Source: Nakazawaea peltata (lineage: Eukaryota; Ascomycota; Pichiomycetes; Alaninales; Pachysolenaceae). From it: a stretch of DNA of 64,000 nucleotides. Shown piece by piece: positions 3,171 to 56,424 of the stretch; the first letter of the stretch is position 1; each line of letters opens with the position of its first letter. Below the pieces are notes generated by a model that saw only the letters and a list, made by a program, of their open reading frames with translations, made no database searches and had not been told where the DNA came from. Both the position numbers and the translations under genes were made by a program. The stretch spans positions 509,554 through 573,553 of the forward strand of contig BCGQ01000002.1 of assembly GCA_001599355.1 (NCBI GenBank), given 5' to 3'.

Positions 3171-3256
3171 AGCAAATTACGAAAGTACTTTATCTTATCG
3201 AGCAAATTACAAATTAATTTAAGCGAAATTTCATTCAATAGCAGTTTATGAATAAT

Positions 3257-5456: not shown

Positions 5457-7337
5457 TTATTTCTCAGCCTTGTATTGCTCGTAAGCAGATAAAGCATCGT
5501 TGAAGTGAGATTCGAACAACTTGTCGTCACTCAACAAGGACAAAATCTCCTCGTTGTCCAAGTCCAACATCATACCGGTGATCTTACCGGCAGCCTCTGG
5601 GTCGGTGGCCTTACCAGTGGCGACGATCTTTGGGTACAATTCCTCACCCAACATTCTCTTTTGTTGTTCTGGAGGGAATTGAGGCAAGATGGAGGCCAAG
5701 GAAGCACCTTCCTCTGGCTTGGTTTGTTGCTTTCTTTGACCGTTGTTTCTTTGGCCATTGTTGTAGTAACGTTGTTGTTGTTGTGGGACACCGTTGAAGA
5801 CTGGTGGCATACCGTAGACTGGCATTGGTTGGCCGTTTGGACCTCTTTGGAATTGACCTTGAGGAATTGGCATTTGACCTGGTCTTGGAATGTTTTGTTG
5901 CATCATCATTTGAGGGTTTGGAGCACCGAATGGAGCACCGGCTCTGGCGTTAGGTGGCAAGAAGCCTGGTTGTTGGTTTTGGCCGTAGAACATTGGGTTG
6001 ATGAATTGACCTGGGATACCTTGAGCAGCAGCTTGTTGCATTCTCATTTGGTTTCTGGCTTGGATTTGTTGCTCCAATTGTTGACGTCTGACATCCTTTC
6101 TTTGGGCCAAGGCAACGTACAATGGCTTACCGGCGATCATTCTTTGGTTCATCTCGTTGGTGGCCTTGGTGGCTTCCTCTGGGGTGGAGAAACAAACGAA
6201 ACCGAATCCCTTGGACTTACCAGCCTCGTCGAGGGCAACCTTGACGGAGGTGATGGTGCCGAATGGCTCGAACTCGGTCTTCAAAGTCTCTTCATCGACA
6301 GAGTCGTCCAAGTTCTTGACGAACAAGTTGACACCTTGGTACTTGGACAACTTCTCCAAACGAAGAGCCTCGTATTGCTTTCTCAATTCCAGCAATCTTT
6401 CACCCTTCTTTTGGGCACGTCCGACGTAAAGAGCCTTACCGTTGAAGTCCTTACCGTTCAATTCCTCGACGGCCTTGGCGGCATCTTCGTGGTTCTCAAA
6501 GTTGACGAAACCGAATCCCTTAGACTTACCGTCGGCATCCTTCTCGACAACGACAGAGGTGGTCTTACCGACACCTTCGAAGATCTCCTTCAATTTCTCG
6601 TCGGTGATGTCCTCGGCGATGTCCTTAACGTAAACGTTAGTGAACTTAGCCTTCAGTTCACCAACCTTTTGCTCACGTTCTCTTCTAGAGACGTGAGGAC
6701 CGACGTAAACCTCCAAATCGTTCAACAACATACCGTTGACGTTCTCAATAGCGGCAGAAGCAGCCTCCAGAGACTCGTAGTGGACGAAACCGAAACCCTT
6801 GGAGTTACCCATCTCATCGGTGGCGACCTTACAAGACAAGATCTTACCAAAGGCGGAGAAAGTGTCGTGCAAAGTCTTGTTGTCGATAGCTGGGTGCAAG
6901 TTCTTGATGAAAATGTTACCAGCACCGTTCTTTCTCAAGGATGGGTCACGTTGAGACCACATGATTCTGCAGGCTCTACCCTTGATTGGGGTGTAGTTGA
7001 GCTCATCCATGGCACGTTCACCGTCTTTCAGGTCTTGGAAGTTAACGTAGGCGTAACCCAAAGAACGCTTGGTGACGGCATCACGACAAACACGGATGGA
7101 GGAGACTTGTCCAATTGGAGAGAAGGCCTCGAACAAGTCGGATTCAGTGACATTAGTGTCCAATTCACCAACGTACAAGGAAGCAGAGTTTTCGACAACC
7201 TTGGCTTCGGAAGCAGTGGAGGAAGCTGGAGTGGATTCCTCAGCAGCTGGGGAAGCTTCCTTCAGAGACTCCGAGGAGATGGTCAAGTTGTCAAGCTTTT
7301 CTTGAACTTCGTTGACTGGTTCTTGAGCAGAGGACAT
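5457..7337 (-). CDS. PAB1: PAB1, poly(A)-binding protein
   Basis: 626 residues from the ATG at 7335-7337, which sits in a strong context (ACAAAAATGTC). An in-frame TTG 9 nt upstream is not a start. Four RRMs are visible, each with paired RNP motifs: SLYVGELD about residue 54, NIFIKNLH about 142, NVYVKDI about 235 and NLFVKNLD about 338. A Pro/Gln/Met-rich linker follows (about 420-530), then the C-terminal MLLE domain with [19 protein letters not shown]. Pab1 coats mRNA poly(A) tails, binds eIF4G and PAN/termination factors, and controls translation and deadenylation. Length and order match the family (S. cerevisiae 577 aa). Codon use is strongly biased (TTG Leu, GGT, AAG), as expected for a highly expressed gene, and this creates long antisense shadow frames. 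Confidence 0.97.
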
Positions 7338-8356: not shown

Positions 8357-10177
8357 TTATAAGTTGTTGTTCTCCAAGAAAAAGTAGTTTCCAGACAACT
8401 TTTGTTCCTTATCCATTTGAGAATCCAACTTGTTGATTCTTGGTCTGAACGAGTTTGGATCTCTTCTGAATGTGACATTCAAGTTCTTCAAGAATCTGTT
8501 ACAACCAGTCAATAAACTCTCTGGGGTTCTAGCAGTGGCATCCTTGGATGGTTCACCTTCGAACACGATAACCTTGTCGGCCAAGTAGGTGGCCATGATG
8601 AAATCGTGCTCGACGATGAAGGCGGTCTTCTTGGCATGGATGATGAATCTTCTGATAACCTTAGAACAGACAATACGTTGTTCAGAATCCAAGTAAGCAG
8701 ATGGTTCATCGATAAGGTAGATATCAGCTTGGGCACCCAAAGCCATCACGATGGCAACTCTTTGCAATTCACCACCAGACAAATGTTGAACTTCTTGATC
8801 GATGATGTCCTCGATTCTTAATGGTTTGATAACATCGGTGTTGAATTGAGGGTGGAAGAAAGCAGCTTTTATTCTCTTGATGAACAATTGTCTGACAGTT
8901 CCTGTGAACTTTGGAGCAATCTTTTGTGGTTTCATCGATACGTTCAATTTAGGAGCCTTAGTTCCTTCATCTGGCTCTAAAGCACCGGCTAACAATCTAC
9001 AGAAGGTGGTCTTACCGGTACCGTTCTCACCCATCATGACTAAGATTTCAGAATCGTTGAATTCTCCCGGTTCAACGGTCAATTTGAAATCACCTTGAGT
9101 CTTGGTCATCTTCTCATAAACGAAAGCTCTGGATTGGTCGATGACCAAGTTATCAGAGGCATCACTCAACTTGAATTGTAAAGATTCGGTTCTGAATCTC
9201 AAGTTCTCAGTTGGAATATGACCATCAAGGAAAATATTAATACCTTCTCTAACAGAAGAAGGCATGGTAACGACACCGTAAACGGATGGAGTACCATATA
9301 AAATACAGACGAAATCGGACAAATAATCCAAGACAGATAAATCGTGCTCAACGACAATGACGTAAACGGATGGGCCCAACAAAGATCTGATCATAACGGC
9401 AGCGTTCAAACGTTGCTTAACATCCAAATAAGAAGATGGCTCATCAAACATATACACATTAGCATCTTGAACACAAGTCATACCAATGGCAAATCTTTGT
9501 AATTCACCACCAGATAATTTGGCAACTTCTCTCTTCCAAATTCCCTTCAATTCCAAAATATTGACAATCTGTTTAGCAGCGTCCTTTCTCTCCAATTTTT
9601 GATGCAACAACTCTCCAACCTTGTTAATTGGGCCCTTGATGGCTCTTGGGATGTTGTCAACGTACTGAGGCTTAATGATGGCCTTGATATCATCTTCCAA
9701 TACTTTGGTCAAATAGTTTTGTAATTCGGAACCTCTGAAATGTTTCAAGATGTCTTCCCATTCAGGAGGATCGTCATATCTACCCAAGTTTGGCTTTTGC
9801 TTACCGGCCAAAATCTTCAAAGCGGTGGACTTACCAATACCGTTGGTACCGACCAAACCTAAAACTTGACCTGGTCTAGGAGTTGGCAATCTATGCAACT
9901 TGAAAGAGTTGGCAGAATATCTATGAGTGACTTGACTTTCCAAGTTGGTTGGCAAGTTGATGATCTGAATGGCGTCGAATGGACATTTCTTCACACAGAT
10001 ACCACAACCAATACATAAAATCTCCGAGATGAAGGCGATCTTATCGGTCGGCAGTACCTCGATACAAAGCTTACCGGTTTTATTCACAGGGCACCCTTTT
10101 CTACATTCTTGACGACATCTCTTTGGCTTACACTTGTCAGTGGAGACAATCGCAATACGGGAATTCTTCTCACTCAT
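8357..10177 (-). CDS. RLI1: RLI1 (ABCE1), Fe-S ABC ATPase for ribosome recycling
   Basis: 606 residues from the ATG at 10175-10177, with an in-frame GTG just upstream ignored. The N-terminal Fe-S domain has all eight cysteines in the standard places: C16, C21, C25, C29 and C38, C55/C58/C61/C65 around [13 protein letters not shown]. Two ABC ATPase domains follow. The first has Walker [10 protein letters not shown] (about 106-114) and LSGGELQR. The second has GENGTGKTT (about residue 380) and [11 protein letters not shown], each with a DEPS Walker B. Rli1 splits post-termination ribosomes with Dom34/eRF1, and acts in initiation and ribosome export. It is essential and one of the most conserved eukaryotic proteins. 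Length equals the S. cerevisiae protein (608 aa). Upstream AAAATTTT motifs suggest growth-linked control. Confidence 0.98.
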
Positions 10178-11935: not shown

Positions 11936-14900
11936 ATGGCCCTCGCAGACGAAATAGAACTGAACCCTGAGTTGTACGGCTTGAGAAGATCAAGACGTGC
12001 CCATATCCCAGTGGAATCTTATGATCTCGAGAGCGATTCCGAATCACAACCGCGTAAAAGATCCAAACGAGATAAAAAATCGCTGGATTATCAAGAAGAT
12101 GACGACGATGAAATGGATGGGTTCGTCGTAGATGATGACGAGGATGACTATGAAGAATTTTCATCTCGATCCAAGACCAAGAGACCTCGTGGGAGACCCC
12201 CTGGGAAGAGCTCCAAAACTAAGAAAAGCTCTAAGAAACTGAAACCGGCTCCACTGGAGATCCGGTTTTCCGGCCGTAACAATAAGACAGTCAACTACGC
12301 CGTTGATTATGACGATGATGACGATTTACTCGAGTCCGACGACGAGGACCAGTACTCTTATGAAGCTGAAGGATCTGTCCCATACGAAGAATCCGAAAGT
12401 GACCTCCATTACATAGACCAAGTCATGGATCATCGTCGTAAAGGTGACACTGAGGAGGAAGGAGACTCCACAGAGATCATGGACCTTCAGACGGCCACGG
12501 AGCTCTACGAATTCAAGATCAAATGGTCCGATAAATCGCATTTGCATAACACTTACGAAACTTACCAAGATTTAAAGCAGTATAAAGGTATTAAAAAGGT
12601 GGACAACTACCTGAAACAGTTCATTATTCTTGACCACGAGATCCGTGCCGACCCTTATATCACCCGTGAAGATATCGAGCTGATGGACTTGGATAGAGAA
12701 CGTCGTCGTGACCAGAATCTGGAGTATACTCAAGTGGAGAGAATCGTCGACAGTGAGCGTGTGATCGAGGGAGGAGTATCCACGTTGAAATATTTCGTCA
12801 AGTGGAAGAGATTGAACTATGATGAGTGTACATGGGAATTGTCCGATGAGATCCTGCAATTGGCTCCAGATAAAGTCCAGCAGTACCAGCAGCGTGCCAA
12901 GTCGAAGATTTTGCCTAATTTGTCGCTGAATTATGGCTCAAATAGACCTAGATTCGAGAAATTGGTCTCCCAACCTCTGTTCATCAAGAATGGAGAATTG
13001 AGAGACTTCCAATTGACCGGTTTGAACTGGATGCTGTTCTTATGGTCGCGTAATGAGAACGGAATTCTTGCCGATGAGATGGGGTTGGGTAAAACTGTCC
13101 AGACTGTATCGTTTTTAAGTTGGTTGATCTATGCTCGTCGTCAAAATGGTCCTCATTTAGTGGTGGTTCCATTGTCGACCTTGCCAGCCTGGCAAGAGAC
13201 CTTTGAGAAGTGGTCTCCGGACTTGAACTGTATCTATTACGTGGGAAATACCGACTCTCGTCGTACTATCCGTGACTATGAGTTCTACACCAGCAATAAG
13301 AAACCGAAATTCAACGTGCTTTTGACTACTTATGAATATATATTGAAGGACCGGTCGGAATTGGGTTCGTTCAAATGGCAATTCCTTGCCGTTGACGAGG
13401 CCCATCGTTTGAAGAACGCCGAGTCTTCTTTGTACGAGTCTTTACGGGATTTCAAAGTCGCCAACAGATTGTTAATCACCGGTACTCCATTGCAGAACAA
13501 CATCAAGGAATTAGCAGCCTTGGTGGACTTCTTAATGCCTGGAAAATTACAGATCGACCAAGAAATCGATTTCGAAGATGGAGGTGAAGAACAAGAACTG
13601 TACATTAAATCTGTTCAAGAGAGTATTAATCCGTTCATTTTACGTCGTTTGAAGAAAGACGTCGAGAAGTCGTTGCCTTCCAAGACCGAGCGGATCTTGC
13701 GTGTCGAACTTTCCGATATCCAGACCCAATACTACAAGAATGTGTTGACAAAGAATTACTCAGCTTTGAATGCCGGAGTCAAAGGTGCCCATGTCTCCTT
13801 GTTGAATGTCATGCTGGAGTTGAAGAAACTGTCCAACCATCCGTACCTTTTCGACAATGCCGAAAGCATGGTATTGAGTAAAGCTGGGTCGTCTACTCGT
13901 GAGAATGTCTTGAGAGGTATGATCATGTCATCGGGTAAGATGGTTTTGCTCGACCAATTGTTGACTAGATTGAAGAAAGATGGTCACAGAGTACTTATTT
14001 TCTCCCAGATGGTCAGAATGTTGGATATTTTGGGTGATTACATGTCGATCAAAGGGTATAAATTCCAACGGTTGGACGGTACAGTTCCATCATCTCAGCG
14101 TCGTATTTCTATCGACCATTTCAACAAGGAAGGGTCGGAGGATTTCGTCTTCTTGCTTTCCACTAGAGCTGGTGGGTTAGGTATTAATTTGATGACGGCT
14201 GATACGGTTATTATTTTCGATTCTGACTGGAATCCTCAGCTGGATTTGCAACTGATGGCCAGAGCTCATAGAATTGGTCAGAAAAACCATGTCATGGTGT
14301 ACCGTTTTGTCAGTAAAGACACTGTAGAGGAGGAAGTTTTAGAGAGAGCAAGGAAGAAGATGATCTTGGAGTATGCTATTATATCGTTGGGATTGACCGA
14401 CAAGAAGACGTCTAAGAAACTGGATCCTTCGGCTGGTGAATTGAGTGAGATCTTGAAATTCGGAGCTGGAAATATGTTCAAGAACAGTTCCGAGAACCAA
14501 AAGAAGTTGGAAGACTTGAATTTGGATGACGTTTTGGATCATGCCGAGGATCATGTAACTACTCCAGAGTTGGGTGAGAGTAATTTAGGAGGAGAAGAGT
14601 TCTTGAGACAATTTGAAGTCACCGATTATAAAGCCGATGTCGAATGGGATGATATTATTCCGGAAGAAGAGTTACTGAAGATCAAAGAGGAGGAGAAGAA
14701 ACGTCAAGACGATGAGTACTTGAAGGAGCAACTTCAAATGTTCTCAAGAAGGGCTGCTGCTGTGAAGAACATGCAAGAATCTCAGAAACAGCCTATGTAC
14801 GCTGAGTATGATGAAGAAGATGAGTTGGAGGAGAAGAAACGTAAAGAAAGGGCTCGTAAGAGAAAGGCTCAGCAAGCCTTTAACACCTTGACCGACAAAG

Positions 14901-16174
14901 AAATCCGTGCTATTTACAAACAAATCGGTAAATGGGGTGATATCGACGGAATGTGGGAGGAACTTATTGTGGAAGGATCGATTTCTAACAAGAATTTGGA
15001 TTTGTTGAAGGAGTGTTATCATGATTTAGTTCAGACCGCAGTTGATTTGGTCACTAAGGAGGAAGAACGTCGTCATAAAGTACTTGCTGATCTTGAGAAG
15101 AAGGCTCAAGAACAGAGAGAGAGGGAGAAATCCACTCCTCCTCCATCTGGGGCTGGAAGTCCTCCTCCTTCTTCGGAATCTGGAGCTAAAGATGCTGTAG
15201 CATTATGGCAACAGAAACGTAAAGAGATCAAGAAACTGATTTTGTTTGATTATAAAGGTGTCACTAAGCTTAATGCCGAGGTTGTGGTCAATAGACCTAA
15301 GGAAATGAAGACATTGAGACAGCTTGTTCCTGCAAATGATCCTCTTAAATTCAGATTGGCAAGAATGCCTAAACCTGTGTATGGGTGGTCTTGTGATTGG
15401 ACTCATGTAGACGATGAGAAATTGTTAATTGGTGTATACAAGTTTGGTCATGGTTCGTGGATTCAAATTAGAGACGACCCATTGTTGGGATTACAAAATA
15501 AGATGTTTTTGGATGCCAATGCTGTCTCTAAGGAATCTTATACTGTCCAAGATGAACAAGGAAACACTGTTACTAAGGAAAGAGTGATCAAAAAGACCCC
15601 TCAAGCTATTCATTTGACCAGAAGAGCCGATTATTTGATGGGATTCCTTGAAGAAATCAAGAATGCCCCAGCCATTCCATTACCTCCAGTGAAGAAGGAA
15701 GTAACTGGAAGTTTGAACGGTGTTGGTGGTGGATTACCGATCCCAAGATTACCTACAAGTGCGGCATCATCTTCAGCCAAAAAGAATGGTACTCTGAGCT
15801 CGAATGGATCATCTTCAGGTCCGGTAAAGAAGTCCAGTTCCCCAGAAGCCCCTCCAACCAAGAAAGTTGAAGAGGATGAGCATATTGTGTTGGATGAAGA
15901 GGACTGTAAGAGACGTATGAACGCTGTCAGATCATCTTTACGTCTGTTGAAACAAGGATCCAAAGGAATGGACCGTGTCAAATGGGCTCAAGTGTTGAAG
16001 AAGGAACTTTTGGCCGTGGGAGATCACATTTCTAAAGAGCTCCAAACCACCAAAGCCAAGAACAAATTGGACAAACAATTGTGGTATTTTGCTCTGAGAT
16101 TCTGGCCAGCCAAAGTGCATAGTTCTAAGATCAGAGCAATGTACAAAAAAATCAAGGAAGCAGGAAAGTCGTGA
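11936..16174 (+). CDS. CHD1: CHD1 chromatin-remodelling ATPase
   Basis: 1,412 residues from the ATG at 11936 (S. cerevisiae 1,468). An acidic/basic N-terminus leads to tandem chromodomains (about 185-320), with [19 protein letters not shown] in the second. The SNF2 motor follows: DEMGLGKT at 380-387, DEAH at 487-490, and the helicase motif V/VI block ending MARAHRIGQ near 780. After a linker come the SANT/SLIDE-type DNA-binding domain (about 980-1220) and a C-terminal CHCT helical domain ([17 protein letters not shown], about 1340-1400). Chd1 slides and spaces nucleosomes behind RNA polymerase II. This gene also gives the best evidence for the altered code: codons 367, 632, 769 and 773 are CTG at positions that are Ala in Chd1/SNF2 proteins ([33 protein letters not shown]). 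Confidence 0.97.
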
Positions 16175-18094
16175 ATGTATAGTAAATTCAAAGATGATTT
16201 AATAGGTGTAGAAAGTAGGGGCAGTAGGCAGTGGGGCACGAGGGGGAGGAAGAGGGGGGGGGAGAGGGAGAAAAGAGAGGGGCAAGGAGGGCGAGGGAGA
16301 GTAAATGGACGAGCCATAACCTATCCGTTCCAGTCCACCGCGCTAAACTCAGCTTACGTTCCCTTCAACCCATCCTCTTTCCGTTCAGATCTCCTATAAA
16401 AATCTGCTGTTTTATTACATCGCACGACAATTAATGCCGAAAAAATTCACAGAGACAAAGGAAGAAATATTTAAGACATATTTTGATCTGCAGTGCATGC
16501 GGGAGACTAGAAGCTGAGAATGGGACTAGAGTGGGAGGAGGAGGGAGGAGAGAGAGGGAGGGGCAGATGGAGAGAGAGTGGGGAGAGCGAGGTGGAGAGA
16601 TGTGGAATGGATTGGAGGGTCTATAGAGGGTGGATTGGAGTGGATTGGAGTGTGATGTGTTGTGGAGGTGTGGAGTCATAGATCCGCTCTGTAATTACTC
16701 TCTTCACATCTCCACATAAGCCTCCTGTTGAGTGTCTAAGAAAAACTGTTGCGCTGCGCAAAATCATACTAAAAAAGTAAACTCATAACATTTAACCCGA
16801 GGAAAATGATGAGACTGTGATTACATAAGAAAAGAAAGGAGGGTAAAAAGAAGAGAAAAGGGAGGGTAACAAAGGAGTAAAGCCAGGTAAGATAAAGGTA
16901 GGGTAAGCAGTGAAGATAAGAGGAGGAGAATAAGGATAAATAATTATCAGATTAGAACAATAAAAAGAATAGATAATCGACTGATGTTATAGTTAAGATC
17001 TGTAATGAGGCATCGTAATGGTTACAGTTCCAGAGTTATCACTACCCTGACGGTGCTTTAATTGTACTGTATCCTCTCCTTGTAGGGTCTAGGTTTTTTG
17101 TGCTACTTTAATCCAAACGCACAACAAGCATTTGAGCACCGGCTTTGTTACTAGCGCACGGAATTTACCTGTACTACATAATAAATTGTACGTCAGCATA
17201 TTTTTTGTATGGCAATGCTAGACATACATTACATGGAGAGTTTCTTTTGTCGAGTATATAAATGAATACGAGTGCTGAGAGGCGAGTGGCAAGAAATTGA
17301 ATCAATTGGGATTCATTTCAATCATAGTTCTTCATCTTCAAACAAATCCAACTCAAGCCAACTCAAGCCAACTCAACCCAATCCAATTCAATCCTGCCCT
17401 ATTGCCCCAAACCTACACTCAATTATCCTTTGCATAACCAAGAAAAAAAACAAAATCCGCACAATAGATAGTAGATCACAATAGGGGATTCGCAAGCATT
17501 AAAAATCAAACGAGGGTAACAAAGAATATAATTTAAGTTTCAATTCCGGTGTGGCATGTTCGAGTCCAACCATTTACACCAACTTCAGCATTTACAAACC
17601 TCAACGACATCAATTGGCATCCATCATCCCATCACAAACGTCCCACATCCCATGTGCAGGTAAGTCCGCTTTTCAAGATTTCTGCCCTAGAAAAAGGGCA
17701 GAAGGAAAAAGTCTGATTCTAGAATACTGACCAAGACTCGTAACGGGGATAATAACAGGAGGCAGGTTTGACATAGCTGGGGATAGGTCTGGATCCAGAT
17801 TCCTGATAGTGATGGATTCAGATCTATCTTGATAGTTGAGCTCCATAAACAGTAGTATCCAACCCCGAATTACGCTCTGCTCCCTCCCCTCTCCCTCCCC
17901 CTCGTTTCTCGTTCTGCCCCTCTTCGTTCCCTCCCATTTTTCATGCCCAAGCCCTGAATACATATTTTTTCCCTCCAAATTGTGTGTGGAAAGTCCGGAG
18001 AGGGAAAAAAGCGGGTGTTGAATCGGATTCGAAGTAGATTGCAACAGATCACACCAAGGGCGGATAACAAATCACAGAGTCTCAGGAGTTGGAA
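16175..18094. other. Long upstream region of the Ser-rich regulator gene
   Basis: About 1.9 kb without a convincing gene. Two purine-rich blocks (16200-16320 and 16530-16680) follow CHD1. Four Reb1-like GGGTAA motifs lie at 16841, 16864, 16901 and 17514. Three ACTCAAGCCA-type units occupy 17351-17380. A short ORF begins at 17556 (MFESNHLHQLQHLQ...) and reaches a perfect GTAAGT donor at 17660, then a 9-bp hairpin at 17680-17703 and a TACTGAC at about 17725. No acceptor joins it in phase with the downstream gene, so I treat it as an upstream ORF or a leader intron of unknown use. Confidence 0.45.
17680..17703 (+). other. Perfect 9-bp hairpin in the leader region
   Basis: TTCTGCCCT (17680-17688) pairs exactly with AGGGCAGAA (17695-17703) around an AGAAAA loop. 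It lies 15 nt after the GTAAGT at 17660, so it could be part of a leader intron or a structured 5' leader. Confidence 0.6.
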
Positions 18095-20182
18095 ATGCGG
18101 AAAATGGGCATCTACCCTTCGTGGAAGAACAACAACAGCGCCAATGGCTCCTCAACAGCCGCCTCCCCCAACGCCCCTACAACGACCACCAACAGTGCTG
18201 CTTTAGATAACGAATCGGTAACGAATCACCGGGACGAAGGGCACGAGCCAATGGCCTTGAAGAGTCCTTTGGGGTTCTCAGGAGCCACATTTGATGGGGC
18301 TCTGTCTAGCGCCGGCGGCAATACGAACGCCCCGGCTGTGCCGCTGCCTTTGCCGAGCCCACATAAATCCTCCACCAGAGTGTGGAGATTGAAGAAATAT
18401 CGGAGCAGTGACGCCGAACAACAATCCACGCTCATACGAGACCCACTGGGAGCTAAAGGGTCCTCATTTGCATCTGATCATGAGCTGTTACAGCCCACGA
18501 CTTTGGCCCCTTCCAAAAATGGTACCAGAAGACTTCCGCCTAGACGGCCTAAAACTGATAAAAATGGGAACCCTCTTGAGTTTGTCTTCATCGATGCATC
18601 TCCGTTAAGGAAATCCACAACGGCTGAAGATGACGAGACATCAGCTGAACAGCCACAAATCACCGAGCAATCCACAAAAAGACCAGGCAAATTCCCAAAG
18701 AATATCTTCAGACTTTCCTCCGGCAGTAGAAAAGAATCAAGGACAATCAATACAGACATCGCTACAGCCCTGAAATCCAAGATATCTCCGTCTGACGAAT
18801 ATCCAGACTCGGCAGTGCTGGCCTTGAAACTGTCCAGTACATTACAGGATTTGACTCGGGCTCGTAACAGTAGTGTGTCTTCGGTCAATAGTAGACACTC
18901 ATTGAAGAGAAATTATACGTCTATTCTGCTGCAATCTCGGTTACCAGCGTCATCTCAAGCTTCAGTCGAGGGAAATACTGCTGGAATGGCAAGATCAGAC
19001 TCGTTAGTATACATAACTATTGACGATAACGGAAGAGCAGCTGTACTGCACCAGCCACAACTCAGTAAAACGATCAGCTCGTCGTCGTCGGTCGTATCGG
19101 ACTTTTTGAACTCGACTAGAAGTCGTTCTCCTCCAGCCGAACGTGCTGAAACCCAACCACCGGCTCCTCAGGGACTCTACGTAAACACTCATTTCTACAG
19201 CTCTCCTCTGTTACAACAGTCTCCATATTTCAACCAAAACAACCAAGGATCGACCCCGTACTCTTTAAGTGCTACGGACGATGACGAAGACGCTCTGTAT
19301 GATGATAAAGACGAGCTTTTCATCGGATCTCAAGCCAGTGACAACGATTATGAATTCAATGGTAATAACGATGCTTTGATTCTGTTCAGTAAAGTGATCG
19401 GATCTAAAAGACAGCAATTAAGTAGGAAGAATTCCAGTGTGTCGATTAGCTCGAATTTCAACAACATGACTCTCGCTAATACTCCTGTTCTGTCTCCTAC
19501 AGTGTCTCGTCCTCTTCATCAACGGTCTCTCTCATCGTTATCACAAACAGCCTTGCCTAGTAGACGTAGTTCTCCAGTCAGACGTCGTCTCAGACATTCT
19601 CAGTCGGTCTCGATCACCACGACTCCAGATATCAGTTATTATCAATCCGGTATTAATAATAAACTGAATCCATACATGTTGAAGACTCAAAGTGTGAGAC
19701 AGAACTCTGCTCATTCGACCGACTCTGCCTCATTTGATCGTCTTGGTCCCGCTTTGGACTTATCGTCGAGTTATACGACTCTGAGCATGTCCTCAGTAGC
19801 TACACCGACGAGTCCTGAACTTCATCGTGGGAGTTCTGGAGACAATAAACTCAAACAGAAGCAACAACAGTTATCGCAACAACAATTGCCCCAACACCAG
19901 TTGCCCCAACACCAGTTGCCCCAACTTCTGTCTCAGATGCCTCATCTCCAATCTTCTCATGACGATGACTTAGGCATCTCGTCTCAGACTTGGACTAACC
20001 CGGTGTCGGCTTTCAATAACCCTCTGTCGTCGGCCATGCATAATTTGGGATCCATAGAGTCCTCCAAAACCTTGACAAGCAATTTGGACCCGTCAGCCCA
20101 GCTGCAGCCCAACGAAGAGTTCGCCGATTTCGACTTGTTCGATTTCATCTCCTACGATAATAATCAGACTTATTTCAATTAG
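18095..20182 (+). CDS. Ser-rich, low-complexity protein of unknown function (regulator-like)
   Basis: About 695 residues from the ATG at 18095. An in-frame TTG 6 nt upstream is not a start, and the frame is closed by a TAA at 18065. I do not recognise the family. Visible parts are an N-terminal Ser/Asn/Thr/Pro tract, a short conserved-looking block RRPKTDKNGNPLEFVFIDAS followed by PLRK (about residues 147-170), many SP/TP and RxxS sites (RRSSPVRRRLRHSQSV about 490-505), an acidic patch (ATDDDEDALYDDKDE), a QLPQH repeat encoded by a 15-nt tandem, and an aromatic-acidic C-terminus EEFADFDLFDFISYDNNQ. Composition suggests a phosphorylated nuclear regulator with an activation-like tail, but no DNA-binding domain is visible. 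CTG codons should read Ala. Confidence 0.8.
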   Translation: MRKMGIYPSWKNNNSANGSSTAASPNAPTTTTNSAALDNESVTNHRDEGHEPMALKSPLGFSGATFDGALSSAGGNTNAPAVPLPLPSPHKSSTRVWRLKKYRSSDAEQQSTLIRDPLGAKGSSFASDHELLQPTTLAPSKNGTRRLPPRRPKTDKNGNPLEFVFIDASPLRKSTTAEDDETSAEQPQITEQSTKRPGKFPKNIFRLSSGSRKESRTINTDIATALKSKISPSDEYPDSAVLALKLSSTLQDLTRARNSSVSSVNSRHSLKRNYTSILLQSRLPASSQASVEGNTAGMARSDSLVYITIDDNGRAAVLHQPQLSKTISSSSSVVSDFLNSTRSRSPPAERAETQPPAPQGLYVNTHFYSSPLLQQSPYFNQNNQGSTPYSLSATDDDEDALYDDKDELFIGSQASDNDYEFNGNNDALILFSKVIGSKRQQLSRKNSSVSISSNFNNMTLANTPVLSPTVSRPLHQRSLSSLSQTALPSRRSSPVRRRLRHSQSVSITTTPDISYYQSGINNKLNPYMLKTQSVRQNSAHSTDSASFDRLGPALDLSSSYTTLSMSSVATPTSPELHRGSSGDNKLKQKQQQLSQQQLPQHQLPQHQLPQLLSQMPHLQSSHDDDLGISSQTWTNPVSAFNNPLSSAMHNLGSIESSKTLTSNLDPSAQLQPNEEFADFDLFDFISYDNNQTYFN

Positions 20183-20184
20183 AT

Positions 20185-21873
20185 CTATTTAGGCACTAAT
20201 GTACTAAGGTTTTCTTTAACATATGACATGCAGTCGTCACTGGTAGCTGTAGGATGGTCCAATTGCCAGACCAACAAGCGGTCGTTGAGGGGTCTCATCC
20301 AAGGACCGGGTTTCAATCCGAGCTCTTTGATCAATTTTTTCCCATCCAAAAGCGGCTTCATAGTGAAAATCGACTCGTCAAGGCCCTGGTCGAGACCCCA
20401 TTGGAAAAAGTGCGCGTACTGTGCAACTTTTTCGCTTGTGGGGTCCTCCAAGAGGGTCTGGAAGAGATGGTGGATAAGACAGAGATGCCAGGTGGGGGAG
20501 TTGCCGAGTTTCTTCATGAAGACACCGACGGAGGATCTCTTGGGGTTGGCCAAGAGCTGGGAGAACTCGTCACTCGAATCGATACATTTGGAGATCGTAT
20601 CACTTTCTTTAGCCGAGTATTTCAAACCTTCTCTCATCACTAGCTCGGCCGCGGACATCTCCGATTTCATTTTCTTGGGATTGGCTACTAATTTCAAATC
20701 TTTCCAGGGGTTTAAAATGGTCAGTAAATAGAGCAATTTCCTGTTGGATTTGTCCAGATTCAAGAACTGGGAGAAGAGAGGACTGAAGGTTGCGTTTTGG
20801 TCTATGAGGGAGGTGATTTTCGATAATCCACCGTTAACTATGGTGGAAAGAACTTGATTAGCTTCAATAAATCTGGCCTCGATCTCGCTAAGTTTATCGG
20901 TATTTAAATCTACTATAGTATCTTGTATATCACCGAAATTGAATATGACATCATGAAGTCCTGATTCGCAGATCAATTCTAATCCGTATTCTGGGGTATT
21001 GGAGCTCGTTAACATCTTATGAATTTCTACTCCTACTCTTTCACGACTAATTTTCTTTGTGAGCAGGTACCTAATTTGCGGATCTTGCATCAGTTGCATG
21101 GTATCTGGATGAATGGAGAATCCGAATCGCAGCAGGAATCTTATTAAACGGAGACATCTAAGTGGGTCATCCAAAAAAGTTTTACGAGGTTCTAATGGGG
21201 TTCTTAAAATGCCCAGATTTAGGTCATCGATTCCTTTCTTGGTGAAATCTTCCACTTTTTCTGTCATTAAGTTGTAGAAAAGGGCATTCAACGTGGCGTC
21301 TCGACGATACAGATCTTGTTCAGGTGTCCCATAGGTGACTGTAGGTATTCTACTCTCCTCAGTATACTCTTCATTTCTCAAATTGACAAAATCGATATCG
21401 AGACCGTAAAGTTTTGTAGTGCAAGTTTCCAAATGCTTGGATTTCTCCGGGTTTTTATCAATCTTATGCACCGAGCCACTTCCTGTGATCAGTTTGACTT
21501 GAGATTCCTCGTTATTTTCACGAATATATTCCATCAAATTGGAAGTGAATTGTTCTCCACTGATACAATTGATCAGAATATCGAGATCATTACTCTCGAA
21601 ACCGAGTAATTTGTCTCTGACCCAACCACCTGTGACACGGAGTACGAGTTTCTGATCCAGACCAAGCTCATTTGTCTTGTTATAATGGTCAGAGAACTCG
21701 ACAAGTAAGCGACGAATGTTGGTTTCGACAGGGCTCAACTTGATCTCGGGAACGATGCTCTTGGGTTCGTAGGATGGAGGCATCGAAGTCAAGTATTTGG
21801 AAAGACTGAAGACGGACTTGGAAGTGAGACGTCTTTTGACCGGATTTAATGGTACGGTCAATACTCTTTTCAT
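20185..21873 (-). CDS. CCA1: CCA1, tRNA nucleotidyltransferase
   Basis: 562 residues from the ATG at 21871-21873. The class II nucleotidyltransferase core shows GGWVRDKLLG (82-91) and the catalytic DLD pair D96/D98. Next come the RRDATLNAL block, then the DDPLRCLRLIRFLLRFGF helix. The enzyme adds or repairs the CCA end of all tRNAs in cytosol, nucleus and mitochondria. The first 30 residues are basic and Ser/Thr-rich (MKRVLTVPLNPVKRRLTSKS), mitochondrial-presequence-like, and a second Met at 31 (MPPSYEP) could start the cytosolic form, as known for yeast CCA1. Codon 100 is CTG where the family has Ala (DLDI-A-IN). The 3' end almost abuts the convergent Ser-rich gene, with 2 bp between stops. 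It is divergent from TRM1. Confidence 0.96.
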   Translation of the reverse strand: MKRVLTVPLNPVKRRLTSKSVFSLSKYLTSMPPSYEPKSIVPEIKLSPVETNIRRLLVEFSDHYNKTNELGLDQKLVLRVTGGWVRDKLLGFESNDLDILINCISGEQFTSNLMEYIRENNEESQVKLITGSGSVHKIDKNPEKSKHLETCTTKLYGLDIDFVNLRNEEYTEESRIPTVTYGTPEQDLYRRDATLNALFYNLMTEKVEDFTKKGIDDLNLGILRTPLEPRKTFLDDPLRCLRLIRFLLRFGFSIHPDTMQLMQDPQIRYLLTKKISRERVGVEIHKMLTSSNTPEYGLELICESGLHDVIFNFGDIQDTIVDLNTDKLSEIEARFIEANQVLSTIVNGGLSKITSLIDQNATFSPLFSQFLNLDKSNRKLLYLLTILNPWKDLKLVANPKKMKSEMSAAELVMREGLKYSAKESDTISKCIDSSDEFSQLLANPKRSSVGVFMKKLGNSPTWHLCLIHHLFQTLLEDPTSEKVAQYAHFFQWGLDQGLDESIFTMKPLLDGKKLIKELGLKPGPWMRPLNDRLLVWQLDHPTATSDDCMSYVKENLSTLVPK

Positions 21874-22603
21874 TGGGTGTTGTGATGAGATGGAGGATGG
21901 ATGATTTGGGTCGTGGAAGAAGGGAGAAAAGAAGGGAATGAGAAGAGCAGAATACAGAAAACAGAAAATAGAGAAAACTCAGTAAAGTAGAGGAAAAGCA
22001 GAGGAAAACTAGAGGAAAAAAGTAGAGGAAAATCTGAGGAGAGAAAAGGAAAAAAGGAGGAAAGGAAAGGAGCAAAAAAGGGGTGATGGAAATTGGAGGA
22101 GGAGGAATTAGGGAAGGTAGGAGCCGGCAAGGGAAGGCCGCATGGCACAGTGAGGTTGCAGTATCCTAATAAAATCTGATGCTCTCGTGTCGCATTCCCC
22201 TTCCCCTTAACCTCTAGTTCCCAATTCCTTTAGTTTCCCCCTTCTCTACACCCCTTAGATTTCTTCCTCAGGATCTCCAGGGTCTCCAAGATATCCAGGC
22301 TCTCTCTCAGATTTCCCACTCCCTTACTAAATATCCTCACTAAATTTTCACTTAGATTTCCACCTATTTTCTACTTATTTTCTCACTTATTTTCACCTAG
22401 CTCTCTCTTATTTCCACTTATTTTCACTTATTTCTTCCCCCTACTTATTTCATCACAGACTTTTTCATACTAATCTTTCTTAAACCCCCTACATTTCTTC
22501 CATAGTTTTTCCCTACATTTTGCTCACAATGTACAGGAAAATTTTTCTACCAAAAAATTTTTCGATGAGCTTCAAGGGCGCTTAATCTGATCCATCGAGT
22601 CGT
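21874..22603. other. CCA1-TRM1 shared divergent promoter
   Basis: 730 bp. The half next to CCA1 (21890-22140) is almost pure purine on the plus strand. The half next to TRM1 (22185-22510) is almost pure pyrimidine, so each gene has C/T-rich DNA upstream on its own sense strand. The TRM1 end contains RRPE and PAC motifs. No ORF here looks real. Confidence 0.6.
22537..22570 (+). promoter_or_regulatory. RRPE-PAC pair upstream of TRM1
   Basis: GAAAATTTTTC (22537-22547) and AAAAAATTTTT (22552-22562), followed at once by CGATGAGC (22563-22570). RRPE (AAAATTTT) plus PAC (CGATGAG) is the standard promoter pair of ribosome- and tRNA-biogenesis genes in yeasts. The pair is only about 35 bp from the first ATG, which may favour transcripts that start downstream of it and use the second Met. 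Confidence 0.6.
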
Positions 22604-24178
22604 ATGAGGTTGTATGTTGGACGAGCATTGAAATTGAGCCATTTTACAAGACCAATCATGACAGGAACAGCTACTCTGCCAATAGACACCGAGAAATTCA
22701 CCTTGGTCAACGAAGGTCAAGCCAATGTTTTGTACGCCAAAGACAAGGTGTTTTATAACCCGGTCCAACAGTTCAATAGAGATTTAAGTGTGACGGCTAT
22801 TCGTGCTTGGAGTGAGATCCAAGCCGAGAAACATGCTCTGAAGAAACGTAATGTCGAGGGAGAACCAGTTCAGAATACTGGGAATTGGATCGATGTTTTA
22901 GAACTGCTTAGTGCCTCTGGTTTAAGAGCCATCAGATACGCCAAAGAGATTCCTCAAATTAGAAGGGTCATTGCCAACGATTTTTCACCATCTGCTGTGG
23001 AGTCGATCACTCAAAACATCGAATATAATGATATTCTGTCCAAATGTCAGGCCAACGAAGGTGATCTGATCAAATACATGCAACAAAAGTCTAGTAAATT
23101 TCACGTGATCGATTTGGATCCTTACGGAACCCTGCTGCCTTTCATCGATGGTCTGATCCAGCTGATCAAAGATGATGGGTTGTTGCTTGTCACATGTACC
23201 GATCTTGGTGTTCTCCTGGGTAACGGATACCCTGAGAAATGTTTTGCTCTTTATGGTGGAACCAATCTGTGGGGGGATCTGACTCATGAAAGTGCTTTAC
23301 GTGTGGTTTTGAATATGATCGCTACGGTGCTGCTGAAACATAAGAAGTATATTGAGCCACAGCTCAGTCTCTCTATCGATTTCTACGTCAGATTATTCAT
23401 CAAAGTCTCCACTTCTCCTATCAAGGTGAAAGAATTGCTGTCAAATACTATGTTGGTTTACTCTTGTAGTGGATGTGGAGCTTCTCATTATCAATCGATG
23501 GGAAGAAAGATCTATAACGAGAAGAGCACCGGTGTTCAGAATCAGTATAAATTCAAAGTAGCCCAGGGACCTCCTTGTGGACCTCATTGTGAATTCTGTG
23601 GTTCAGTTCATCATGTCGCGGGCCCAATGTGGGGAGGACCTTTGCATAACCATGACTTCCTCGATAGAGTTCTTTCGATTAGTGAGAATAAGTTGGATAG
23701 AGAAGTTTATAAAACGATTCCAAGAATCAAGGGAATGATCACTTTACTGAAACAAGAGCTTGTGGAATCCCCATTATATTTCAAGCCATCTTCTGTTGCG
23801 TCTGTGTTGCGTATGACCTCGCCTCCTGTCATCGACGTAGTAGCTCTGTTGGGTAATGCCGGATACAATCTGTCGTTGACACATGCTCTGAAATCTCTGA
23901 TCAAGACCGATGCTCCATGGGAGTTTATTTGGTTGATTTTCAAGAAATGGATGGAAGAGAACAATATTCTGTTGAGTAAGAAGTTGAACGAGAACACTTT
24001 TGGTTACAAAATCATGAATAATACCTTATTGTGGGACCGTTTGAAGGAGAAAGAGGTGTCATTTGAGCTCAATGAGGTGTCTAGAAAGATTTCTAAGGTG
24101 AGAACCGATAAGATCTTGAGATATCAAATGAATCCCGAGAAGAATTGGGGGCCAAAGGCTAAACCTGATAGTAAATAG
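22604..24178 (+). CDS. TRM1: TRM1, tRNA (guanine26-N2,N2) dimethyltransferase
   Basis: 524 residues from the ATG at 22604. Met19 (MTGTATLPIDTEKF, ATG at 22658) is a second plausible start. In S. cerevisiae two TRM1 starts give mitochondrial and nuclear forms, and residues 1-18 (MRLYVGRALKLSHFTRPI) look like a presequence. The Rossmann methyltransferase core shows SASGLRAIRYAKE (SAM binding), DLDPYG and LVTCTDLGVL. A zinc-binding region has CSGCG and CEFCG pairs with GPMWGGPLH between about residues 285 and 350. The enzyme makes m2,2G26 in most tRNAs. CTG codons at 177, 178, 184, 187 and 205 fall at Ala-rich conserved positions (GT-AA-PFIDG-A-IQ-A-I; VL-A-GN-YPEKC), strong support for CUG as Ala. 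Confidence 0.97.
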   Translation: MRLYVGRALKLSHFTRPIMTGTATLPIDTEKFTLVNEGQANVLYAKDKVFYNPVQQFNRDLSVTAIRAWSEIQAEKHALKKRNVEGEPVQNTGNWIDVLELLSASGLRAIRYAKEIPQIRRVIANDFSPSAVESITQNIEYNDILSKCQANEGDLIKYMQQKSSKFHVIDLDPYGTLLPFIDGLIQLIKDDGLLLVTCTDLGVLLGNGYPEKCFALYGGTNLWGDLTHESALRVVLNMIATVLLKHKKYIEPQLSLSIDFYVRLFIKVSTSPIKVKELLSNTMLVYSCSGCGASHYQSMGRKIYNEKSTGVQNQYKFKVAQGPPCGPHCEFCGSVHHVAGPMWGGPLHNHDFLDRVLSISENKLDREVYKTIPRIKGMITLLKQELVESPLYFKPSSVASVLRMTSPPVIDVVALLGNAGYNLSLTHALKSLIKTDAPWEFIWLIFKKWMEENNILLSKKLNENTFGYKIMNNTLLWDRLKEKEVSFELNEVSRKISKVRTDKILRYQMNPEKNWGPKAKPDSK

Positions 24179-24999: not shown

Positions 25000-26031
25000 T
25001 TATTTTGGCAAAGCCTTAGCGTCCTCTTCCTTTTGCTTTTGCTTAGCAACAGAGTAAACTAAACCGGAAGCGAAACCGATGAAGATAGAAGAGACAGAGT
25101 AGAAGTTGACGGCGGCTGGGAACAAGATCAAACCGGACAAAGCAATTGGCAATTTGTTCAAAGCACCAACCATGGAGTAAGTGGTAGAAGAGGTAACTCT
25201 GACACACCAAGCAGAGGTGTAAGAAATACCAACGGCACCGGCACCACTGATGACCATAGCGAAGATAGTGGCGAATCTAGAGTCGGCTGGGAAGTTCTTT
25301 TCGATGTTCTCGGCAGACCAGTCCTCGAAGATGAAAGAACAAACCAACAATAATGGGATAGACAAGATGTTGTTGTAGTACATGGTGTCAAAGTCCTTGA
25401 AGTTGGTCAACTTTATTCTCTTTCTCATGACTAAGACGAACAGAGCAGAGCAGAAACAGTTGACTAACATCCAGAAGTAACCGGCGTTCAAGTTGGAGGA
25501 GATCTCGGTGGAAGCAGAGTCGGACTTGTCACCGTAACAAGCAACGACAGAAGAGATAACCATCAAAAGGAAAGAACCCAAAGCCATGGAAGTGACTCTA
25601 CCACCGAACCAAAGGACTTCACCGTAAGCGATCAAGATAATGGTCAAGTTCTTGAAGATGGTGTAAACTGGAACAGACAAGAATTGAATGGCCTTGGAAC
25701 CGGTGTAAATCATACCGACAAGCAAGACGGCGATTGGGAACCACTTCTTGGCCTCGTTCTTGTTGAATTCTCTATAAGTGATGGTGTCAAAGTGCTTCAA
25801 AGTACCAATGACAGCGATACAAACGATACCTTGGACCAGCAACAAGAAGAAGTTCAAGTTGAACTTATACAGCGAAAGGACAAACTTGTTGGTCAAAGTC
25901 ATCAAGATGGATGCAAAACAGTACGACAGGATCGAAACTGGCAGCGAGTTGGCAATCGAAGCCAATCCAGTTTGTGGGAGTACAGCAGCTGGCAGGGTGC
26001 CAACATTGACATCGTCTCTCTTTTCGGCCAT
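25000..26031 (-). CDS. VRG4: VRG4, Golgi GDP-mannose transporter
   Basis: 343 residues from the ATG at 26029-26031 in a good context (GAAAATGGC). About ten hydrophobic segments are visible from residue 32 to 325. The two nucleotide-sugar signature motifs are present: [13 protein letters not shown] (126-138) and GALNK (289-293), which contact GDP-mannose. The C-terminus is Lys-rich ([15 protein letters not shown]), as expected for a cytosolic tail that helps Golgi-ER cycling. Vrg4 exchanges GMP for GDP-mannose to feed mannan and glycolipid synthesis in the Golgi, and is usually essential. Codon bias is strong, so expression is probably high. A TATATATA at about 26102-26111 lies roughly 75 bp upstream. 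Confidence 0.96.
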
Positions 26032-33750: not shown

Positions 33751-33762
33751 ATGGGCGGTTAA
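33751..33762 (+). promoter_or_regulatory. Three-codon upstream ORF abutting the CWH43 start
   Basis: ATG-GGC-GGT-TAA, whose stop overlaps the CWH43 start as TAATG. If translated it would end exactly where the main frame begins, so reinitiation could set CWH43 output. It matters only if the mRNA starts upstream of 33751. Confidence 0.4.
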
Positions 33763-47698: not shown

Positions 47699-49717
47699 CT
47701 ATAATTTAGCTCTACCAGCAGTAATATCGAGCCAATTCTGTTCGGTCAAAAACTCATATTTCAAACTCTTTGGATTCATCCAGTAAATCGTTTGGTCGTT
47801 ATTCTCACCCCTTGGCAATTTAGTGTTCTTATATTGCTTCTTAGGAATCTTATGAGTATGACTATTGGTGATTGGACCGAATCTAATGAAGAGAGGACGA
47901 GCATAATTTGGGATATTCGACTTGACATGACTCGAAAGTTTATCGAGTAAAGATTCCGGCTGTGAAACATTCTCGGTAAGCTCGATCACCGCAAATCCAC
48001 ATCTTCCCTCATGATTAGGGACCTTAATTCCAACTACACAACATTGCAGAATCCCTTCTAATTTCAATAACTGATTTTCCACTTCAGTTGTACTGACGTT
48101 CTCGGATTTCCAACGGAATGTGTCACCCATTCTATCTACAAAATACAAAAGACCATCTTTATCGAACTTCATCAAGTCTCCAGTACGGAAATAAGCATCA
48201 CCTTTCTTTAAAATATCACGCAAAACTTTAGAATTTGTCTCCTCTTTGTTATTGTAATAACCTTGGAATGAGGATTCAACTTTTCTTGGGTTGAAGATCC
48301 TAATGACCATCTCACCAACTTCGTCTGGATCAGTTTCGGTGGCAAAACCAGTCTTTGGATCTCTCCAGATCTTGGAATCGTCTTCAGGGTCCATCCGAAT
48401 GATCTTTTGTTGGTAATGAAGTAAACTATTGATGAGCGCACCATAATTCCTACAAGCACCAATTCCATATTCACCGACTTGCCATGTTGTGGTGGCTATT
48501 GGAGATTCAGTAGAGGCATAGAATTCTCCAATGGCATAAATATTGAATCTGTCTTTGAATTCTTTCCAAATCTCCCTTCTCAATCCATTACCATAAGCAC
48601 AAACTACATTGTGTTTCTTTTCATCCGGATGGACCGGACTGTTCAATAAATAACGGCATACTTCTCCTACATATTGGATATGGGTGGCCTTTGTCAACTT
48701 CAGTTGAGTCCAGAATGTCGACAGAGAGAACGACTTTGATATCGCAATGGCTCCTCCTCTAGCAAGACATGGAAGAACACCAAGCATAGCCAGAGTAGAA
48801 TGATACATTGGCATACAAGTGTACACTGTCGACTTATTATTGATACGGTTGATATGAGCAAAGAGTGTCGAAGCCAAAAACAGTTTTCTCCAACTAAGAA
48901 TAGCACTCTTTGGTAACCCTGTAGTACCACTTGTATAAATAAGAACCAGGATTCCCCAATCACTATCGTTTGGTCTTCTCATTTCATGAGGAACAAGAAG
49001 AGTTGGACTTCTAGGATTATTGATGGAATTGAACACATTAACTTCATCAACATAATGAAGAGCAATATGAGGCATCAGCTTCAAAAGCTCAGGTTCACTT
49101 TCTCTCATTTGATCTTGAACTTCCGGATCAACAAATACATGTGATGCTTCTACAATCTTAATAGAATGAACTAAAGGTTCTTTGGTCAAATTGTAATTGA
49201 GGAAACTTGGTGTAGCCCCAATATTCCACAACGCAAACCAATAGAACAAGAACAAAGGTTTATTGGTGAAATCCAATGCCACTGTGTCCTTATTTGTGAT
49301 CCCATATTCATGAACCAATATATAAGATAACCTCAAGACGATGTCGTAGAATTCTTGGTAGGTATAAGTGTCTATCTCGAACTCCTCATCACCTGTCATC
49401 CCCGGAACTCTCTTAGAATGAACAATGGCAGGTCTATTAGGAAATCTCTTGACCGCTTTTTCAAATGGATACCAAAATGATACCTTACCTTTATAGCAAT
49501 TGGCAATATGAGACAGCACTTTAGATAAAAAGTACGGGATGATATGTAAATCCTGAGAGATTCGATACTTAGCATCTAAGTAACCGGCACCAAGTGCCAG
49601 AGCTGCAACAAACTCTTTATATGTAGTGATTTGATTCATTGACGTCGATTTCACCTGTGATCTTCTGACATTGACTGACCTTACCCGCCCTATGACCACC
49701 TTGCTAATTTGGCTCAT
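47699..49717 (-). CDS. FAT1: FAT1, very-long-chain acyl-CoA synthetase / fatty acid transporter
   Basis: 672 residues from the ATG at 49715-49717 (S. cerevisiae 669). AMP-binding core: YTSGTTGLPKSAILSW (about residue 253), YASTESPIATTTW, then FRTGDLMKFDKDGLLYFVDRMGDTFRWKSENVST of the VLACS/FATP signature (about 540-570). A hydrophobic stretch follows the basic N-terminus (KEFVAALALGAGYLDAKY). The last three residues, AKL, fit a type 1 peroxisomal targeting signal. Fat1 activates very-long-chain fatty acids at peroxisomes and the ER and takes part in fatty acid import. It converges on a phospholipid acyltransferase and diverges from CDC14. Confidence 0.95.
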   Translation of the reverse strand: MSQISKVVIGRVRSVNVRRSQVKSTSMNQITTYKEFVAALALGAGYLDAKYRISQDLHIIPYFLSKVLSHIANCYKGKVSFWYPFEKAVKRFPNRPAIVHSKRVPGMTGDEEFEIDTYTYQEFYDIVLRLSYILVHEYGITNKDTVALDFTNKPLFLFYWFALWNIGATPSFLNYNLTKEPLVHSIKIVEASHVFVDPEVQDQMRESEPELLKLMPHIALHYVDEVNVFNSINNPRSPTLLVPHEMRRPNDSDWGILVLIYTSGTTGLPKSAILSWRKLFLASTLFAHINRINNKSTVYTCMPMYHSTLAMLGVLPCLARGGAIAISKSFSLSTFWTQLKLTKATHIQYVGEVCRYLLNSPVHPDEKKHNVVCAYGNGLRREIWKEFKDRFNIYAIGEFYASTESPIATTTWQVGEYGIGACRNYGALINSLLHYQQKIIRMDPEDDSKIWRDPKTGFATETDPDEVGEMVIRIFNPRKVESSFQGYYNNKEETNSKVLRDILKKGDAYFRTGDLMKFDKDGLLYFVDRMGDTFRWKSENVSTTEVENQLLKLEGILQCCVVGIKVPNHEGRCGFAVIELTENVSQPESLLDKLSSHVKSNIPNYARPLFIRFGPITNSHTHKIPKKQYKNTKLPRGENNDQTIYWMNPKSLKYEFLTEQNWLDITAGRAKL

Positions 49718-55283: not shown

Positions 55284-56424
55284 TTAGTAAGATTTGATTT
55301 CTCCGGCAGAACCAGCCTTGGACTCTTGGGCAATCTTGAAGGACTCAACAACGGCCTTCTTCAAGTTTTCGATACTCTCTTCACTCAATTGGTAGTGGAA
55401 AGCAATTCTACCGTAACCAACAAGGTTAACGTTGTATTTCTTACCCATCTCGATCATGACATCTGGGTTGATATTCAGCTCCAGCATATTAACGAAAACG
55501 AAGTTGGTGTCGGTTGGAATTGTGAGAGGAATACCTTGGGATTCAAAGTAGTCGGCAACCTCCTTAGCTTGCTCGTGGGTCTTGGCCAACTTAGCGTAGT
55601 TCTGTTCAACAGCGTAAATAGCCATTCTCAGCATCATACCACTTTGACGGATACCACCACCGGTTTGCTTTCTGAAGTGGTTCAGTTTCTTGATGTAAGC
55701 CTTAGATCCGACCAAAACAGATCCAATTGGAGCACCCAAAGTCTTAGAAAGACACAAAGAGATAGAGTCGAAGTACTTGGCAACCTCGATTAATGGGACA
55801 CCTTCGGCAACGGCGGCGTTCCAGATTCTAGCACCATCACAGTGTAAAATAATGTTCTTTTCCTTACAGAAAGCAGAGATCTTGGCGATCTCAGCAATTG
55901 GGATTCTGTGACCTTGAATAGTGTTCTCAAGGGCAACGATTCTGGTTGGACAAGTGTGAACATCGTATTCTTGGGAGACAACTCTCTTTTTGATATCCTC
56001 AACAGTCAAGTATAAACCGTTGGATGGGAGAACATTGATAGGCATCAGTTGAGTCAAGGTGGAAACACCGGCGGCCTCATTTCTGAAGATGTGAGCTCTA
56101 GCATCCAAAAGAATACTGAAAGGTGGCTCTGGAATATGAGCCTTCAAACCAATTTGGTTAGACATGGTACCACTGCAACAGAAGAGACCCAGCTCCTTAC
56201 CAGTTAACTTGGCAACCAAAGCCTCCAAAGCGAGAGTGTCTTCGTCTTCGTCGTAGACGGCGTCACCGATGGTGGCAGTCGACATGAGTTCGAACATCTC
56301 CTTGGTAGGAACAGTGAAAGTGTCACCTATCTATGTTAGTGAAAATTCCTAAATCAATATCTTATCTTTTCTATTACTTACTTCTAAATTCGTTATGAGT
56401 ACGAGGGAATTCTTCCTTAGTCAT
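55284..56424 (-). CDS. GLY1: GLY1, low-specificity L-threonine aldolase (one intron)
   Basis: Exon 1 is 56382-56424 (43 nt), the intron is 56327-56381 and exon 2 is 55284-56326, giving 361 residues. The spliced N-terminus reads ...NEFRSDTFTVPTKEM, the conserved R-SDT-T-PT start of the PLP fold, which is lost if the gene is started at the internal ATG at 56297. Other marks are GDAVYDEDEDT, then GLFCCSGTMSNQIG, HCDGARIWNAA (PLP-binding Asp) and the Schiff-base lysine in SKTLGAPIGS (about K209). The enzyme splits threonine or allo-threonine to glycine and acetaldehyde, a major glycine source in yeast. Strong codon bias suggests high expression. A TATATATAT lies about 65 bp upstream. Confidence 0.95.
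56327..56381 (-). other. GLY1 intron (55 nt)
   Basis: GTAAGT donor, CACTAAC branch site, acceptor GATAG. It interrupts the Ser codon of the R-SDT motif after its first base. Confidence 0.88.

Follow-up and report, generated by a model that had tools for sequence, protein, structure and literature searches.

The 64-kb stretch of DNA analysed here (the window) is very probably budding-yeast nuclear DNA whose CUG sense codons are translated as alanine, as in NCBI translation table 26. An earlier annotation (the original prediction) had put this forward from ten CTG codons in three genes of the window, CHD1, TRM1 and CCA1, said to occupy invariant alanine positions. The proposed meaning of CUG is supported by sequence comparison: alanine was the best of the 20 residues in a tally of 71 CTG columns, and 35 Pfam families agree with it in total. 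The observation behind it was partly confirmed, and the details of the conserved columns had been overstated.

Homologous residues at CTG columns

CTG was translated as X in the query proteins, which were searched against the sequences of solved structures; masked in this way, a query is unable to favour any reading. RLI1, which has a single CTG, was searched unmasked with alanine at that codon. The best one to five matches of each search were used, and alignments lacking CTG sites were omitted, as were near-identical chains (four further Chd1 constructs, 3wgc, 4lnj, 6zce, 1cvj and 20zn). The tally covered eight open reading frames (ORFs), with 71 of their 81 CTG codons aligned in 136 homologue cells; the other ten codons were covered by no alignment and do not enter it. 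Residues were scored by summed BLOSUM62 values, averaged per column. Two further proteins lie outside the tally: the GH5 glucanase gave no structure match at 1e-20, and the CYC8-like TPR protein matched only an engineered TPR protein, away from its CTG sites.

At the CTG columns alanine scored +19.6 bits, serine −1.1, threonine −14.9 and leucine −37.0, a lead for alanine of 20.7 bits over serine and of 56.6 bits over leucine, which ranked tenth of 20. The tally was dominated by neither leucine nor serine: the 136 cells held alanine 41 times, leucine 12, glycine 11, glutamate 9, serine 8 and valine 8, with others fewer, and the column-weighted share of alanine was 27%. Alanine came first in 9,979 of 10,000 bootstrap resamplings of columns and in 9,947 of 10,000 of genes, was still best when any one gene was left out, and was favoured by six of the eight genes taken singly. 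Homologues were unanimous for alanine in 12 CTG columns, for leucine in two and for serine in two, the rest being scattered; with at least two homologues aligned, the unanimous columns were alanine (5), leucine (2), glycine (2), proline (1) and serine (1).

As a control, 5,000 gene-matched random sets of 71 non-CTG columns were drawn, for which the mean alanine score was −22.1 bits (standard deviation 5.5). None of the 5,000 reached +19.6 bits for alanine or put it 20.7 bits ahead of the second-best residue. Neither the score nor the lead was attained in 5,000 draws made without GCN (alanine) columns, or in 5,000 restricted to columns in which the residue of the window is absent from every homologue. 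The alanine pattern at CTG columns is far beyond chance. That alanine wins merely as a bland residue in variable columns was considered and rejected, since the random draws lay near −22 bits and the bland winner was serine, the commonest winner among them (1,874 of 5,000).

Other codons served as an internal comparison. With at least 12 columns available, 48 of 49 codons returned their standard residue, and CTG was the sole departure. Twelve codons had fewer columns, and six of these (AGC, CGC, ACG, CTA, AGG and CCC) missed the standard residue; they are read as noise because the columns were few (1–11) and the margins small (at most 3.2 bits). Leucine was found in homologues, column-weighted, at 74% for TTG, 62% for TTA, 48% for CTT and 42% for CTC, as against 8% for CTG.

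Profile tests and individual sites

For the profile comparison, 17 proteins were searched with Pfam under tables 26 (alanine), 1 (leucine) and 12 (serine), and 35 families, one per domain, were summed. Weaker overlapping families (ResIII, HDA2-3, DEAD, Aminotran_1_2, TRM5-TYW2, further RRM and TPR families, and others) were left out of the sum, and the comparison did not extend to the histone-fold, bHLH and GH81 ORFs or to those at 18095-20182 and 53557-54594. Alanine exceeded leucine by 90.6 bits (higher in 21 families, lower in 7 and equal in 7) and serine by 45.4 bits (higher in 19, lower in 8 and equal in 8). Without TRM1 the totals were +55.4 and +27.5 bits, respectively. The largest gains over leucine came from TRM1 (35.2 bits), a Zn-cluster factor (13.0), GLY1 (11.1), CHD1 (9.8) and FAT1 (7.2). 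The best NCBIfam matches, scored with alanine, leucine and serine in that order, gave 427.1, 399.6 and 414.8 for TRM1, 257.8, 245.4 and 252.3 for the threonine aldolase, and 121.6, 112.8 and 118.6 for the CCA enzyme.

The CTG sites singled out for inspection, with the residues of the aligned homologues, were:

13034..13036, forward strand: CHD1 codon 367; Ala in 5o9g
13829..13831, forward strand: CHD1 codon 632; Ala in 5o9g
14240..14254, forward strand: CHD1 codons 769 and 773, in a 17-residue helicase block; Ala in 5o9g
23132..23218, forward strand: TRM1 codons 177, 178, 184, 187 and 205; in 3axs/2dul P/P, V/M, V/A, S/S and S/C
23330..23335, forward strand: TRM1 codons 243 and 244, tandem CTG; Ala-Ala in both 3axs and 2dul
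21574..21576, reverse strand: CCA1 codon 100, in DLDIxIN; T, A, A and V in four homologues
21310..21312, reverse strand: CCA1 codon 188; A, A, A and L in four homologues
56190..56192, reverse strand: GLY1 codon 36; Ala in 3 of 3 aligned homologues
55683..55685, reverse strand: GLY1 codon 205; Ala in 3 of 3 aligned homologues
55629..55631, reverse strand: GLY1 codon 223; Ala in 3 of 3 aligned homologues
48722..48949, reverse strand: FAT1-like codons 257, 309 and 332; Ala in 9vzp (long-chain fatty acid transport protein 2)
25441..25929, reverse strand: VRG4 codons 35, 65 and 197; Ala in 9s35, and L, F and L in 5oge

The structure chains are taken by us to be from yeast (Chd1, Rli1, Pab1 and 5oge), fission yeast (9ns4 and 9ns2), human (4f02 and 9vzp), Aquifex (3axs), Pyrococcus (2dul) and Thermotoga (3h37). 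Over non-CTG columns VRG4 is 75.4% identical to 9s35 (301 columns) and 66.3% identical to 5oge.

All ten codons named in the original prediction are CTG in the frame and at the position given. The four of CHD1 each face alanine in 5o9g, the sole Chd1 homologue aligned; these were favourable sites, as 14 of the 18 aligned CHD1 CTG columns are not alanine in 5o9g, none of them being leucine. At CCA1 codon 100 two of the four homologues have alanine, and the position is not invariant. For TRM1 the claim of invariance failed: at E 0.001 only 3axs and 2dul were found, alanine occurs in one of the five columns, and none is invariant for it. The tandem codons 243 and 244 are, on these alignments, better alanine sites than the five that had been named. 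The further statement that no site needs leucine or serine holds for the ten codons except TRM1 187 (serine in both homologues), and it does not extend to the whole set, in which CHD1 codon 331, also CTG, is serine in the sole homologue aligned and leucine occupies two other columns (below).

The five TRM1 codons were also set one at a time and scored with Pfam TRM, for which the baseline with no site set was 201.8. Scores for alanine, leucine and serine were 203.2, 201.1 and 202.2 at codon 177; 203.4, 201.6 and 202.4 at 178; 204.7, 201.4 and 202.3 at 184; 203.6, 200.9 and 204.7 at 187; and 204.0, 201.2 and 203.4 at 205. Alanine was thus above leucine at all five sites and above serine at four, serine winning at 187.

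Alternative decodings

Several results weigh against alanine. Leucine scored above it in 13 of the 71 CTG columns and serine in 24, and neither PAB1 (4 columns) nor RLI1 (1 column) favours it when scored by itself. TRM1 codon 222 and CCA1 codon 373 are leucine in both homologues aligned there. Alanine was absent from more than half of the homologues in 45 CTG columns and from every homologue in 44, where serine scored best (−8.0 bits, with alanine at −16.7 and leucine at −24.5). It was present in at least half of the homologues at 26 of 71 CTG columns and at 124 of 204 GCN columns (Fisher p = 0.0005). Among the Pfam families, the preference is slightly for leucine (0.1 to 0.5 bits) in CWH43, LPLAT and VRG4, and for serine (0.4 to 3.5 bits) in SPO71, PAB1, LPLAT and the COG1-like protein. 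Leucine or serine is also preferred by some of the weaker overlapping families, such as TPR_16 and TPR_2 of the CYC8-like protein, and, by 0.8–1.7 bits, by certain lower-ranking NCBIfam matches for TRM1 and the CCA enzyme. Finally, no transfer RNA (tRNA), and hence no decoder of CUG, was seen in the 64-kb window by ARAGORN, with and without introns, or by Rfam at gathering thresholds, and Rfam matched no other RNA there at those thresholds.

CTG is frequent in the window. It accounts for 220 of 12,370 codons in 21 ORFs, about 18 per thousand (the count omits the SPO71-like frame and a frame at 20228-20731, antisense to CCA1), and for 24% of alanine codons if it is read as alanine. Its share of CTG plus GCN codons is 45–53% in TRM1, CCA1 and the Zn-cluster factor; RLI1 has one CTG and 34 GCN codons (1 of 35), and PAB1 five and 54 (5 of 59). 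Highly expressed genes may avoid CTG. Over the 21 ORFs its share of alanine codons drops with a crude measure of codon bias (Spearman −0.46, p = 0.034, an exploratory test).

The points in favour of CUG as serine, the code of Serinales and Ascoideales (table 12), are its second place in the tally, the columns, Pfam families and TRM1 site that it wins, and its lead where alanine is absent. The second place is expected because poorly conserved columns give serine, as the random draws did; moreover, the deficits of 20.7 bits in the tally and 45.4 bits in Pfam, and the 8 serine cells against 41 of alanine, count against it. Serinales and Ascoideales avoid CTG, according to PMC11540330, whereas the window uses it freely. 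We regard decoding as serine as highly improbable. Decoding as leucine under the standard code, with the alanine matches being selected coincidences, we consider hardly credible. Besides the 13 columns and the two unanimous leucine sites, it can call on VRG4 codons 35, 54 and 197, which are leucine in 5oge; that homologue is the more distant, and the closer 9s35 has A, G and A. Leucine also ranks tenth in the tally, falls below both alanine and serine in the columns devoid of alanine, and is matched at 42–74% of TTG, TTA, CTT and CTC columns as against 8% for CTG.

The lower conservation of CTG sites as alanine, relative to GCN sites, and the small share of CTG in RLI1 and PAB1 could also mean that CUG is read mainly as alanine with a minority of another residue, through mischarged or competing tRNAs, and is kept from the most constrained sites. 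Ambiguous CUG decoding occurs in other yeasts, as stated in PMC8629427. Two CTG codons lie, however, at alanine sites inside the Chd1 helicase block; in CCA1 the difference is reversed, alanine being present in at least half of the homologues at 6 of 11 CTG and 1 of 7 GCN columns; and the correlation of usage with codon bias is weak. Since at least two base changes separate CTG from any GCN codon, the lower conservation may instead reflect mutational distance, with CTG arriving slowly at old alanine sites without any ambiguity, and this account is preferred over imperfect decoding. A mixed reading of CUG seems quite improbable to us.

Relation to the known code and gene content of the window

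Reassignment of CUG to alanine, a rare genetic-code change, was discovered in 2016, and the clade as given in 2018 comprised Nakazawaea, Peterozyma and Pachysolen; in these yeasts CUG is read by a tRNA(CAG) that arose from a tRNA-Ala gene (PMC5951914). By analogy with that work, CUG in the window would be read by an alanine-charged tRNA with anticodon CAG whose gene descends from one for tRNA-Ala, and it would not be read by the leucine tRNA(CAG) of the ancestor. Table 26 is labelled for Pachysolen tannophilus, and the NCBI taxonomy has an order Alaninales with one family and exactly these three genera. Alaninales are treated as CUG-Ala in codon-usage work as well (PMC11540330). In a screen of 462 yeast species the meaning of CUG fitted the known clades in 453 and had no confident assignment in nine (PMC8629427).

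No difference was found between the window and the table 26 yeasts: in both, CTG is alanine in nuclear genes and the other well-sampled codons are standard. With the CUG-Ser yeasts the window shares the move of CUG away from leucine, but the residue is alanine rather than serine and CTG is not rare. From the code alone we infer an Alaninales-type origin. The GC content of the window, 41.5%, is close to the 42.3% given for Nakazawaea ambrosiae in PMC10106607, which is weak evidence of clade.

The assignment of CUG to alanine is correct but already known, and the literature searched gives no reason to suspect a new code. We give a small probability to a CUG-Ala lineage beyond the three described genera, or to mainly-alanine decoding with a meaningful minority residue (CUG being placed at tolerant sites and kept from highly expressed genes). 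The result bears out a published reassignment in a further stretch of sequence, and its value lies in annotation. Under the standard table about 18 in every thousand codons (220 of 12,370) would be given as leucine instead of alanine, with errors in Chd1, the threonine aldolase and the CCA enzyme at sites where homologues have alanine; table 26 is the one to use when these genes are annotated, expressed in another host or submitted to structure prediction. The weaker conservation of CTG- than of GCN-coded alanine is a possible handle on the spread of a reassigned codon, and is not strong evidence.

The window carries budding-yeast genes, with long ORFs on both strands. Genes were named from Pfam and structure matches, and the yeast gene symbols are those that we presume to apply. 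The ORFs identified were:

6-3176, reverse strand: SPO71-like protein (PH_SPO71, PH_4 and Spo7_2_N), extending past the left end of the window
3470-4111, forward strand: histone-fold protein
5457-7337, reverse strand: PAB1
8357-10177, reverse strand: RLI1
11936-16174, forward strand: CHD1
20185-21873, reverse strand: CCA1
22604-24178, forward strand: TRM1
25000-26031, reverse strand: VRG4
27252-29318, reverse strand: Zn-cluster factor
29493-32408, forward strand: Vps51/Exo84/Cog1-type (COG1-like) protein
33762-36686, forward strand: CWH43/PGAP2IP-like protein
38736-39788, reverse strand: bHLH factor
43060-45138, reverse strand: MFS transporter
46410-47651, forward strand: acyltransferase
47699-49717, reverse strand: FAT1-like acyl-CoA synthetase
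50073-51791, forward strand: CDC14-like phosphatase
51864-53366, reverse strand: GH5 glucanase
55284-56297, reverse strand: threonine aldolase GLY1
60617-62653, forward strand: CYC8-like TPR protein
63195-64000, reverse strand: GH81 glycosyl hydrolase, C-terminal part, extending past the right end of the window

Between GLY1 and the CYC8-like gene, about 4.2 kb (56331-60517) contain no stop-to-stop frame longer than 95 codons and no Rfam match at gathering thresholds; the intergenic stretch seems long for a yeast. The Vps51/Exo84/Cog1-type ORF contains tandem repeats of 12 and 15 bases at 30951-31003, 31762-31841 and 31984-32146.

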